Shown here in pieces: positions 30,989-34,210 of a stretch of 50,565 nucleotides of DNA. Location of the stretch: positions 1-50,565 of the forward strand of contig VYCW01000092.1 in assembly GCA_009843735.1 (NCBI GenBank), given 5' to 3'. This DNA comes from Acidimicrobiaceae bacterium (GTDB lineage Bacteria > Actinomycetota > Acidimicrobiia > Acidimicrobiales > Aldehydirespiratoraceae). Under the pieces are notes generated by a model, which made no database searches, had not been told where the DNA came from, and saw only the letters and a list, made by a program, of their open reading frames with translations. The position numbers and the translations under genes are program-made. Numbering within the stretch: position 1 is the first letter of the stretch; each line of letters starts with the position of its first letter.

Positions 30989-31083
30989 CTCTTGTTCGCT
31001 TCGCTCACGGGCCGCTCGGGCCACGGCCTCGCTGAGCGTGTCGTCACTGCCCTCACGGTTGGTCGCCTATCCGCTCGGCCTCT
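30989..31083 (-). repeat. Dispersed intergenic repeat, copy C
   Basis: Lies between rsmH and ftsL on the minus strand. AGAGGCCGAGCGG begins it inside the last codons of rsmH, which therefore ends in QRPSG; the far module holds GGCCCGAGCGGCCCGTGAGC and GAAGCGAACAAGAG. After the module, GCGGGAAACACC resembles GCGGGAGACACC after copy D, so the family may extend further. It interrupts an otherwise tightly coupled operon. Confidence 0.75.
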
Positions 31084-32029
31084 GGTCCAGGCGTTCCACG
31101 GCCCGCAGCCGGGCCGAGCCCGCCCGATGGTTGGCGGCCTTCTCGGTTTCCGTCGGGGTGCGGGACCGTCGTCCCAGGAGCCGGACAGTGGCTGGGGCAC
31201 CCGGCGCCGGAGGCAGCCCCGGCCGCGGCGGCGGGGACTCGCCGGCCGCCAGCCTGAAGACCGACTTGACGATCCGGTCCTCACCGGAGTGATACGACAG
31301 CACGGCGCATCGGCCGCCATCGACCAGACGATCGATGGCGCCGGTGAGGGATCGTTCGAGCATCTCCAGCTCTCCGTTCACCTCGATTCTGAGGGCTTGG
31401 AAGGTGCGCCGGGCGGGGTGGGCGCGCCGGCGCGTCGTGGCGGGAACTGCTCCTGCCACCGTCCTGGCGAGCTGTCTGGTGGTAGTGAAGGGCCGCTGGG
31501 CGACGACGGCTGCCGCGATGCGACGGGCGTACCGCTCGTCGGCGTTGCGGCGGAGCAGGACGGCGAGGGCGTCCTCGCTCTCGCCGTTGACGATGTCGGC
31601 GGCGGTGACCGGGCCGTCGGGGTCCATGCGCATGTCGAGGGGGCCGTCGAGCCGGTAGCTGAAGCCGCGCTCGGGCCGGTCGAGCTGCCGCGAGCTGACC
31701 CCGAGGTCGAAGAGGCACGCCGAGATCCGGTCCTGGCCGATGCTGTCCAGCACGGTGCCGAGCGCATCGAAGGTGGCCCGGTGCAGCGTCACGCGGTGCC
31801 GGTGAGGGGCGAGGCGCTCGGCCGCGGCCATCAGGGCCTCAGGATCCCGGTCCAGGCCCACGAGCCGAATGTGCGGAAGGTTCTCCAAGAGCGCGTCCGT
31901 GTGCCCGCCGTCCCCGACGGTGGCGTCGAGGACGACCCCTTCGGGAACGTCTCGCAGCACGTCCACAACCTCCCGGCACATCACCGGCTGGTGGTATTGG
32001 GGCTGGCCGGCTCCGGTCTCGCCGCTCAT
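31067..32029 (-). CDS. rsmH: 16S rRNA (cytosine-1402-N4)-methyltransferase RsmH (MraW)
   Basis: 320 residues from ATG 32029. SAM-binding fold: YHQPVMCREVVDVL, VVLDATVGDGGHTDALL, VGLDRDPEALMAA, then CLFDLGVSSRQLDRPERGFSYRLDGPLDMRMD, and C-terminal FQALRIEVNGELEMLE and VLSYHSGEDRIVK. All are RsmH hallmarks. No strong Shine-Dalgarno was noted. It follows mraZ after a 262-bp gap containing a large inverted repeat. The last residues are encoded by dispersed repeat C. Confidence 0.95.
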   Translation of the reverse strand: MSGETGAGQPQYHQPVMCREVVDVLRDVPEGVVLDATVGDGGHTDALLENLPHIRLVGLDRDPEALMAAAERLAPHRHRVTLHRATFDALGTVLDSIGQDRISACLFDLGVSSRQLDRPERGFSYRLDGPLDMRMDPDGPVTAADIVNGESEDALAVLLRRNADERYARRIAAAVVAQRPFTTTRQLARTVAGAVPATTRRRAHPARRTFQALRIEVNGELEMLERSLTGAIDRLVDGGRCAVLSYHSGEDRIVKSVFRLAAGESPPPRPGLPPAPGAPATVRLLGRRSRTPTETEKAANHRAGSARLRAVERLDQRPSG

Positions 32030-32099
32030 GGGCGGCGGGGTCACAGCGTGCTGGGCCCGGCGGCCGGTCGAGCGGCGTCGAGTGCACGGGTGAGGCAAC

Positions 32100-32224
32100 G
32101 CCCGGTCATCTGCAGTTCCCCGACCGACGGCGCACGTCGGGATTTCTCCCCCGATCGAGCTAATGGCAAGCGGGCGGAGTACGGGTCTTCCATCTGCCAA
32201 TCGGGGAACTGCACATGACCGGGC
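32100..32224 (-). ncRNA. Candidate structured leader RNA between mraZ and rsmH
   Basis: Arms 32100-32123 and 32201-32224 (each GCCCGGTCAT-S-TGCAGTTCCCCGA when read inward) are inverted copies with 23 of 24 matches. In the minus-strand transcript the stem can extend five more positions (32124-32128 with 32196-32200) using U-G, U-G, G-C, G-U and C-G pairs, pairs not available on the other strand. In the 67-nt loop, 32137-32154 can form a 6-bp hairpin with a GAGAAA loop, again with one G-U pair valid only on the sense strand. This suggests a sense RNA structure controlling rsmH and downstream genes. A structured mraW leader motif has been described in actinobacteria; I cannot tell whether this is the same. 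Confidence 0.5.
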
Positions 32225-32291
32225 GAGCCTTCGACGGCACCCCTGGTCCTTGTGGATTCGGTGGTCTGGGTAGAATTGGTGGGTGGGACGA

Positions 32292-32741
32292 TCAGGCACT
32301 GGCGATCCCCCGCCCGTGGGCTATGGCTTCGGCGAGACGCTCCGGTCCGACGGACTGCACCTCCGCCCAGCGTTCGGGACTCCAGATCTCGATGCGGCTG
32401 ATCATGCCGGTGACGATCACATTGCGGTCTATTCCGGCTCCGGCCCGCAGGTGGGGCAGGATCCGCATGCGTCCCTGCCCGTCGGGCACCACGAAGTCGG
32501 CCTGGGCCGCGAAGCTCCGCAGCGCGTTGATGTCCACCAGCCTCTCGCCCGTCTGGGACCGGAGCTCCTCGGCGGTGCGAGCGAACTCGTCGACCGGCAG
32601 GATTCCCACGCAGCCGTCCAGGGCGGTGACGTAGGCGCCGTCGGCCAGGTGGCTGCGGAACCCCGCCGGCAGGATCAGCCGGCCCTTGCCGTCGATGGTG
32701 TGCTCGTGGACACCAACGAACAACGTGCGAGGGGGGTTCAT
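32292..32741 (-). CDS. mraZ: Transcriptional regulator MraZ
   Basis: 149 residues, two AbrB-like SpoVT repeats: FVGVHEHTIDGKGRLILPAGFRSHL (~8-32) and FAAQADFVVPDGQGRMRILPHLRAGAG (~77-103), each with the DxxGR core. It is the first gene of the dcw cluster, and in other bacteria it binds decamer-spaced boxes upstream of itself and represses the cluster. Such boxes are visible upstream here. ATG 32741 has no clear Shine-Dalgarno. Confidence 0.95.
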   Translation of the reverse strand: MNPPRTLFVGVHEHTIDGKGRLILPAGFRSHLADGAYVTALDGCVGILPVDEFARTAEELRSQTGERLVDINALRSFAAQADFVVPDGQGRMRILPHLRAGAGIDRNVIVTGMISRIEIWSPERWAEVQSVGPERLAEAIAHGRGIASA

Positions 32742-32788
32742 GGTTGACGCTCACGCTCGTCCACATCGAGCCAGGGCCCTCACCGGGG

Positions 32789-32853
32789 CACCACATACGA
32801 CTCCCAGCCACTCCACAGCGCACCACCGTACTCCCTTTCTCACCACAAGGCAA
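32789..32853 (-). promoter_or_regulatory. mraZ promoter with MraZ-type decamer operator
   Basis: Promoter on the minus strand: -35 TTGCCT (plus 32848-32853), 17-bp spacer, -10 TACGGT (plus 32825-32830). Overlying it, five consecutive decamers (32801-32850) end in GTGGTG, AGGGAG, GTGGTG, GTGGAG and TGGGAG, and a sixth GTGGTG follows 2 nt out of phase (32789-32794). This matches the known MraZ operator design of repeated TGGG/GTGG boxes at 10-bp spacing, and its place over the promoter suggests autorepression. Confidence 0.65.
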
Positions 32854-32933
32854 GTCATTGGGAGGACAAATCTCCCGACTGGAGACATCGCGGGTGGAAC
32901 ACCCCCTCCCCGCGTACGGGCGCCGGGGCGGGA

Positions 32934-33701
32934 TCAGCTCGAGCGCAACGCTGCGAGCAAGGACCGCGTCAGCTCGACCTCCGTCGCCGGGATGGAGGTG
33001 GAGCGGCTGTCCAGGACCCTCTGACCCTCGGCCCGTTCCGCATCGCTGAGGTCCAGCAGGTCCAGCTCATCGAGCCCGTCATCGGTCGCGCTCGGGGCGG
33101 CCTGCGATCCCTCGGGCTGCAGCCGGGCGGCCGTCTGTATCCGCACCCGATCCCGGCTGCGCCGCTGGCTGACTCCCACAACCTTGCGACCGTCCAGGAA
33201 CACCTCGCCCGGACCCATTCCTGCGAAGCACACCAGCCTTCCCCACCGGTCGGCGACGAGGCGGCCGGTGTGGACCGAGCCCCCAGCGTCGGAGATGCTC
33301 GACACCACCGACGCCCACAGCCGGCCGACCCAGCCCGTCGCCAGGGTCACGTCGTCGTGCCATAGCGGATCGGTCGCGGTCACGAAGAAGTCCGCCCACA
33401 CCTGGCGCCCGGGCCGCAGCAGCACCGCCCCTCCTCCGCTGCGCCGGCGGACAACCTCCACGCCCGAGGTCGCGGCACGGTGTGCGTCGGCTACGCCGGC
33501 CTTCTGGGTGCTGCCAAGCACCAGGCCCGGCTCCTCGACGGTGTACATCCTGGCCAGCCTCGACGCGTTGGTTGGCGGCTCCTCCAGCGCGAGGAGGTCG
33601 GAGACCGAGCCGCGCACGTGCTCAACCGTCCAGTCAGGACAACCGCCGGGTGCTGGGACTCCGGCCGGTGCGCGTCCAGCCGGTTCGCCGCTCGGGCTCA
33701 C
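32934..33701 (-). CDS. Lipoate/biotin--protein ligase A-like protein
   Basis: 255 residues from GTG 33701 (overlaps the HNH stop as GTGA). Ligase-fold motifs: PGLVLGSTQKAGV, EVVRRRSGGGAVLLRPGRQVWADFFV (the RRxSGGGAV lipoyl-AMP loop), and EVFLDGRKVVGVSQRRSRDRVRIQTA with the conserved Lys. C-terminal part is acidic (DDGLDELDLLDLSDAERAEG). Likely attaches lipoate or octanoate to a carrier domain, although no target protein or lip gene is nearby. Confidence 0.82.
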   Translation of the reverse strand: MSPSGEPAGRAPAGVPAPGGCPDWTVEHVRGSVSDLLALEEPPTNASRLARMYTVEEPGLVLGSTQKAGVADAHRAATSGVEVVRRRSGGGAVLLRPGRQVWADFFVTATDPLWHDDVTLATGWVGRLWASVVSSISDAGGSVHTGRLVADRWGRLVCFAGMGPGEVFLDGRKVVGVSQRRSRDRVRIQTAARLQPEGSQAAPSATDDGLDELDLLDLSDAERAEGQRVLDSRSTSIPATEVELTRSLLAALRSS

Positions 33702-34210
33702 GCGGTGCGCAGGCCGCTTCCGGGTCGCAGGTACGGTGTCCACACCTCAGGCACAGCGCCCGCGGCGATCTCGACCCAGGTCGACGGCGGCGGCGGCTCG
33801 GGCCGGCGGCGCAGCATCATGCCGCTCTCGCTGGGAAGGCGGTCCCGCTTCTTGGCGTTGCACCGGCGGCACGCCGCCACGACGTTCTCCCAGGTGTGCT
33901 GCCCGCCCCGGCTGCGGGGCACGACGTGGTCCATCGTCTCGGCCCTTGCGCCGCAGTACTGGCAGGCGTCGCGGTCTCTCGCGAACACTGCCCGCCGGTT
34001 CGGCGAGCGGTGACGGGGGCGGGGCACGTTCACGTAGTGACTCAGCCGAACCACCGAGGGCACATCAACCGATCGCCGCTCGGATCGGAAGGCGCGTCCG
34101 GTGGCGTGGAGCATCTCGACCTTCTCGGCCAGCACCAGGCACACGGCCCGGCGGGCGCTCACCACTGCGAGCGGCTCGAAGGTGGCGTTGAGGACGAGCA
34201 CCCCGGACAT
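33698..34210 (-). CDS. HNH endonuclease family protein
   Basis: 170 residues. N-terminal VLVLNATFEPLAVVSARRAVCLVLAEKVEML is typical of a widespread actinobacterial/cyanobacterial HNH family; the HNH site is CQYCGARAETMDHVVPRSRGGQHTWENVVAACRRCNAKK, with two CxxC zinc pairs and the D-H...N...H pattern. C-terminal PPPSTWVEIAAGAVPEVW. Role unknown. Start ATG 34210; TAGCCT lies 7 nt upstream, indicating a leaderless transcript. Coupled to the ligase gene by a 4-nt overlap. Confidence 0.87.
   Translation of the reverse strand: MSGVLVLNATFEPLAVVSARRAVCLVLAEKVEMLHATGRAFRSERRSVDVPSVVRLSHYVNVPRPRHRSPNRRAVFARDRDACQYCGARAETMDHVVPRSRGGQHTWENVVAACRRCNAKKRDRLPSESGMMLRRRPEPPPPSTWVEIAAGAVPEVWTPYLRPGSGLRTA

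Follow-up and report, generated by a model that had tools for sequence, protein, structure and literature searches.

A conserved structured RNA precedes rsmH in the Acidimicrobiia and carries a loop resembling the 16S rRNA around C1402

Introduction

In the autoregulatory leaders of ribosomal-protein genes, the mRNA carries a mimic of the rRNA site to which the encoded protein binds, and the ribosome-binding site is occluded by this leader. Among rRNA methyltransferases, KsgA (RsmA) of E. coli is thought to repress its own translation, and we know of no conserved leader family for it.

The methyltransferase RsmH (MraW) methylates C1402 of 16S rRNA; RsmH and RsmI are reported to act on 30S subunits and not on protein-free 16S rRNA, and for RsmH no detectable binding of cytidine was reported (PMC5053481). 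A cis-regulatory RNA, the mraW RNA (Rfam RF01746), lies directly upstream of rsmH/mraW in Actinobacteria. It was listed for Actinomycetales in Weinberg 2010 (PMC2864571) and is reported to be transcribed in Corynebacterium diphtheriae, where it is presumed to be tied to peptidoglycan synthesis (PMC5784534); in the parts of these two papers that concern the motif, its function is given without a test. The E. coli ncRNAs from the same operon that are named in the relevant part of PMC6156199 lie within mraZ, ftsL, ftsI and murE. Here, a structured RNA found between mraZ and rsmH is described. The window is the whole stretch of DNA analysed, 50,565 nucleotides of an Acidimicrobiaceae bacterium.

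Results and Discussion

The mraZ-rsmH hairpin is a structured RNA of the sense strand

The region between mraZ and rsmH contains an inverted repeat with arms at 32099-32123 and 32201-32225, each 25 nt long and 77 nt apart, which are complementary at 24/25 positions (96%), the highest complementarity among the 25 of 31 window inverted repeats listed. A sequence-only reading of the locus had proposed 24-nt arms matching at 23/24 positions across the same spacer, and each arm proved to be one base longer. It had also proposed an inner extension with G-U pairs and a nested hairpin with a GAGAAA loop, both of which are found in the sense-strand fold, whereas it had overlooked the start codon within the 3' arm and a second nested hairpin, P2 (32194-32162), where the sequence of the element is conserved most strongly. 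The features of the locus, in the order of transcription, are as follows.

32292..32741, minus strand: mraZ, the upstream neighbour (Pfam PF02381, 71.8 bits)
32196..32225, minus strand: 5' arm of the long helix P1; 26 P1 pairs modelled, compensatory at 19/26 in the 48-sequence alignment and 26/26 in the 65-sequence alignment
32162..32194, minus strand: P2 hairpin (GAUGGAAG ... CUUGCCAUU); 8 pairs, compensatory at 2/8 (48 sequences) and 8/8 (65 sequences)
32171..32181, minus strand: P2 loop core UACUCCGCCCG, near invariant; 9/11 positions match the 16S rRNA around C1402
32132..32160, minus strand: P3 hairpin with a GAGAAAU loop; compensatory at 4/9 pairs in the 48-sequence alignment
32099..32128, minus strand: 3' arm of P1, from the fold and the inverted repeat
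32118..32121, minus strand: Shine-Dalgarno-like GGGG within the 3' arm, replaced by GGGAG or GGGGG in relatives
32107..32109, minus strand: AUG in the 3' arm, from which the window's 22-codon leader ORF starts
32041..32109, minus strand: short leader ORF, 22 codons plus stop; its UGA overlaps a possible rsmH GUG start (GUGA, 32044-32041)
31067..32029, minus strand: rsmH (mraW), 16S rRNA C1402 N4-methyltransferase (Pfam PF01795, 317.5 bits); start candidates are AUG 32029 and the in-frame GUG 32044

P1 is a near-continuous helix of about 26 pairs with P2 and P3 nested within it. Short members of about 94-103 nt keep P1 and P2 and have a shortened P3 or none, and in four genomes of ~0.6-1 Mb (f65) the loop UUACUCCGCCC is kept and the stems look by eye to be more A+U-rich. 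The sense (minus) strand folds at -85.6 kcal/mol, compared with -54.3 +/- 3.9 for shuffled sequences (z -8.1; 0/200 shuffles equal). The plus strand likewise gives a stable fold (z -7.2), and as a near-perfect palindrome must fold on both strands, a single sequence cannot decide between them. Among 91 class-wide sequences, G-U pair cells exceed A-C cells, which would be G-U pairs on the opposite strand, by 282 to 80, and the element was therefore assigned to the minus strand, that is, to the sense mRNA.

Covariation in the mraZ-rsmH gap of relatives, which the sequence-only reading had named as a check, was assessed by pair counts with shuffles and slid controls, and compensatory pairs were found. 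In an alignment of 48 sequences, which omits two partial or second copies (L072 and L080), four rows of identical sequence and four repeat retrievals, 95.5% of cells are paired and 25/43 pairs show compensatory change against a shuffle mean of 12.3; 0/500 shuffles reach any of five measures, and slid controls are 33-45% paired. A class-wide alignment of 65 sequences gives 92.7% paired cells and compensatory change in 43/43 pairs, compared with 37.5-48.3% paired in slid controls, although it leans towards the model because it was fitted to that model. It draws on 65 of 100 sources, the omitted ones being 26 with a strong antisense match, 8 without a good match and 1 repeat.

The near-perfect inverted arms would also suit a mobile or DNA-level element, such as a MITE, a REP sequence or a recombination or terminator palindrome. 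This is exceedingly improbable in view of the single full-length copy, the fixed place in relatives, the covariation with its G-U bias and the lack of a terminator-like site. A search of the window's genome returned one full-length copy, and the remaining matches (E up to 10) cover 14-25 bases. Positions 31950-32950 contain no terminator-like site (a G+C-rich hairpin followed by a U-run); a terminator was rejected, and the earlier idea of an attenuator, if taken to mean an intrinsic terminator, is not supported. The hairpin is a structured RNA of the minus strand, and the earlier preference for a functional sense-strand RNA over a DNA palindrome or MITE is supported by covariation, G-U bias, copy number and synteny.

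Two further readings of the inner region were rejected by eye. An apparently conserved peptide, MEDPYSARLP, in one frame of P2 is broken by single-base indels (L023, L109) and by the difference in P3 length, changes that leave the pairing intact, and kissing between the P2 and P3 loops (CUCC with GGAG) is lost in L022 and L025, P3 being absent in short members. Several contigs of relatives (G002 C51/C45, G005 C31, G453 C169/C290, G287 C255) end inside the element or within about 30 bases of it, as might be expected at a strong hairpin.

The element is an analogue of the mraW RNA

The sequence-only reading had also suggested a comparison with the Rfam mraW motif. Membership of that family is not supported by score, although the genomic position is the same and the architecture is similar. 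Neither the window nor any of 10 diverse member loci contains a match to the mraW RNA at its gathering score (50 bits), and the same holds for every other family of Rfam 15 at its own gathering score. A search of positions 31900-32900 against Rfam up to E 10 returned no mraW RNA and two chance-level matches (E 4.6 and 9.9), neither of which lies on the hairpin.

Like the mraW RNA, the element lies directly upstream of rsmH and forms a long hairpin with a conserved C-rich apical loop starting with ACU. The mraW RNA, however, is a single hairpin without P3, and its loop is ACUUCCCC (in 3/3 RF01746 loci over the cut-off) in place of ACUCCGCCC in the element; the best 16S match of the mraW loop is not C1402, unlike that of the element. 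None of the genomes over the mraW cut-off (G549, G560, G521) is among the matches of the two covariance models of the element described below. The mraW RNA is thus an analogue of the element at the same place.

The other systems are more distant. The E. coli operon ncRNAs differ from the element. In contrast to the ribosomal-protein leaders, the element precedes the gene of an rRNA methyltransferase and resembles rRNA over a short stretch of a single loop, and its binding by the encoded protein is putative; KsgA control involves a different enzyme and a different RNA. In the open-access literature, nothing on point was found for the element or for RsmH autoregulation, subscription journals being largely outside this coverage.

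The element is widespread in the class and linked to rsmH

The element was found by BLASTN in 43/51 genomes of the window's family. Of the eight genomes without a match, G023 has a degenerate copy (locus L087), six belong to genus g10 and G030 is 66% complete. The element is still recognisable at mraZ loci in other families of the order. In genus g6 it is better conserved than its neighbour MraZ, with 84-86% DNA identity as against 59-60% identity of MraZ in the three genomes listed.

A covariance model (R1) matched 168/248 genomes of the order and 229/296 of the class. In a sample of 396 genomes from the phylum it matched 23, of which 22 lie within the class and one (G654) is false: the match is an unrelated palindrome, and tblastn with RsmH and MraZ of the window found in the surrounding 1.6 kb two scraps of MraZ (E 0.2 and 0.98). 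A broader model (R2), built from the 65 class-wide sequences, matched 249/296 class genomes and, in the phylum sample, 25/396 genomes, all 25 within the class; it gave no match in any of the 358 sampled genomes outside the class, nor in 13 class genomes. Searches over more than 40 genomes used stricter filters, with some weak matches lost.

At all 91 loci examined, rsmH lies directly downstream of the element. Upstream, mraZ is present in 90/91, a linkage that is not independent for 19 loci, since these were fetched via mraZ. Loci from the genome-wide searches show the same arrangement, and both genes are present at 16/16 weak or divergent matches picked, one of which (G299) was already among the 91. 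The distance from the end of the model to the HxPV motif of RsmH has a median of 62 nt and lies between -3 and 172 nt in 89/91 loci, the outliers being 346 nt (L129) and 692 nt (L021). Among eight loci without a good match, in seven the stop codon of mraZ is separated by just 23-82 nt from the first rsmH codons, and in the eighth, L087, the copy is degenerate and its loop reads TACTCCGCCC. At L083-L086, from genus g10 of the window's family, the mraZ-rsmH region measures 23-80 nt, an apparent clean loss.

The element is very probably a cis-acting RNA leader of rsmH. The suggestion of the sequence-only reading that it regulates rsmH gains backing from this linkage and from the start codon that lies inside the helix in many members.

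Two other observations concern the surroundings of mraZ in the window. Repeats of GTGG/TGGG type, seen by eye at 32780-32850 upstream of the gene, resemble MraZ operator boxes, and a lipoate/biotin ligase-like gene (PF21948) adjoins mraZ at 32934-33743.

P1 contains a Shine-Dalgarno-like run and a start codon in many members

By eye, the 3' arm of P1 carries GGGG, GGGAG or GGGGG followed about 7-8 nt later by AUG or GUG. The start codon of the arm is in frame with rsmH in 44/91 loci, and in four of these (L139, L180, L181 and L184) the codon is a GUG at a different position of the arm. As about a third would be in frame by chance, the weight rests on the 25 of these 44 loci that have no other start before the aligned RsmH sequence. 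At 14 more loci, including the window, a leader ORF from the arm stops between -12 and +30 nt from an rsmH start, and eight of the 14 have a one-base-offset AUGA or GUGA overlap. The remaining 33/91 loci have neither an in-frame nor a coupled arm start, and 14 of them lack AUG or GUG in the arm. At L021 (G013), the arm AUG opens a 204-codon frame whose end overlaps a possible rsmH start as AUGA. In the window, the segment TCGGGGAAC surrounding the Shine-Dalgarno-like GGGG has a predicted mean unpaired probability of 0.001. On the modelled fold, P1 appears to hide the start signals of rsmH, or those of a leader ORF coupled to it.

Two explanations centre on this helix. One is that ribosomes methylated at C1402 initiate better at starts buried in stem-loops, so that the leader would read the methylation of the ribosome pool without RsmH binding the RNA. 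A 2026 preprint reports, in the part that bears on this point, that in B. subtilis, ribosomes methylated by MraW are required for the efficient translation of mRNAs that carry early stem-loops, one of which has a stem limited to upstream sequence and the start codon (PMC13317604). The element likewise takes in the Shine-Dalgarno-like run and the start codon, and it shares with the cmpA and isp mRNAs of that work a stem-loop at the start or early codons and a functional link to RsmH; those are other genes, however, and the portion of the preprint concerned mentions no rRNA-substrate-like loop. Such a readout would constitute positive feedback and leaves the near-invariant P2 loop, set on varying stems, unexplained, and we consider it quite unlikely.

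The other explanation is that RNase III cuts P1, freeing the Shine-Dalgarno sequence and start codon and separating mraZ from the rsmH-fts mRNA, while the loop recruits a modulator. A near-continuous helix of 26 pairs would suit this enzyme, and the precedents outlined in PMC5371410 are adhE and cIII, of which the adhE cut frees the Shine-Dalgarno sequence and start codon. Here too the loop is left unexplained, and this account is unlikely.

The P2 loop resembles the 16S rRNA segment around C1402

The motif CTCCGCC (CUCCGCC) is present in 90/103 P2 loops, comprising those of the 91 loci and 12 of the 16 weak or divergent matches. In the window, the loop core is mostly unpaired (predicted probability 0.76), and the cytosine that aligns with C1402 is at 32174. 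The 16S segment in question is CACACCGCCCG, which we take to contain C1402.

An 11-column profile was built from 88 of the 91 loops, L171, L081 and L175 being left out for want of a gap-free alignment. Its top 16S site was CACACCGCCCG in all four genomes scanned, one of which (G052) is without the element, with 8.8-9.2 bits compared with -0.1 to 0.75 for the next-best site. With a joint background, the C1402 site scored 9.0-9.4 bits and the best 23S site 3.5-4.7 bits, the 23S rRNA being partial in two of the four. Column-permuted profiles equalled the score at C1402 (16S rRNA of G016) in 183/20000 cases (0.9%) for 11 columns, 989/20000 (about 5%) for 8 columns and 6608/20000 for 18 columns, where C1402 ranks 1, 1, 2 and 3 in the four genomes. 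In the window, 22/101140 positions on both strands, including the element's own loop, match at 8.5 bits or more; strings of this kind are therefore no rarity in G+C-rich DNA. The likeness of the loop to the C1402 segment thus seems specific but short (~10 nt), stands at about the 1% level and was noticed before being tested. Pairing of the P2 loop with rRNA was also considered and rejected, the best complement being 8/11 alike in 16S (four genomes) and 23S (two genomes).

If the 16S likeness were a matter of chance, the P2 loop could be bound by another ligand, such as a metabolite, another protein or a small RNA, that sets the expression of rsmH and the wall genes. Strong loop conservation would equally fit a riboswitch or a protein-binding leader, and the mraW RNA has a different loop at the same place. 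Such a ligand would, however, leave the C1402 match to a chance of about 1% by column shuffles with 11 columns (5% with 8), and rsmH is linked in every locus examined. This reading is rather doubtful, though it deserves weight.

Possible autoregulation of rsmH by substrate mimicry

The preferred reading, which is plausible though we stop short of calling it probable, is translational autoregulation of rsmH, in which RsmH would recognise the P2 loop as an imitation of its rRNA target. P1 would sequester the ribosome-binding site together with the start codon, whether these belong to rsmH itself or to the short leader ORF coupled to it, so that translation would be off or low by default. The P2 loop would imitate the 16S segment ACACCGCCCG around C1402, the nucleotide methylated by RsmH, and RsmH in excess of its ribosomal substrate would bind the loop of its own mRNA. 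Bound RsmH may keep the leader closed, or block its opening by ribosomes or RNase III, and the closed leader would shut down RsmH synthesis. Repression of translation by the leader, the role of RsmH as its ligand and the direction of the feedback are all inferred.

Several observations weaken parts of this proposal. Binding of RsmH is made less likely by its reported need for 30S subunits and by its reported failure to bind cytidine detectably. Mimicry is weakened by the analogous Rfam mraW RNA, whose loop ACUUCCCC has its best 16S match elsewhere than at C1402, and by the 16S match itself, which is short, was noticed before the test, is weaker with 8 columns and is gone with 18. Start-codon occlusion is weakened by the 33/91 loci without an in-frame or coupled arm start, and autoregulation by a helix so stable that translation of rsmH without an opener is hard to explain, as well as by the several genomes of the window's family without the element. 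In a more specific form of autoregulation, the loop cytosine that corresponds to C1402 (32174) would be bound by RsmH and perhaps also methylated by it, and the leader would sense free RsmH or the output of methylation and close its own start codon. This form is conceivable, though less likely than not; if true, the division and wall operon would contain a switch that senses modification throughout the class.

The element represents a strongly conserved RNA family, undetected by Rfam release 15, that is tied to the single gene rsmH wherever examined and is present in 249/296 class genomes. If the mimicry reading is right, an RNA-modifying enzyme would be controlled by a copy of its own target, and control of the ribosomal P-site modification at C1402 would be tied to the division and wall operon. 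The proposal offers a concrete, testable idea for why structured RNAs precede rsmH.
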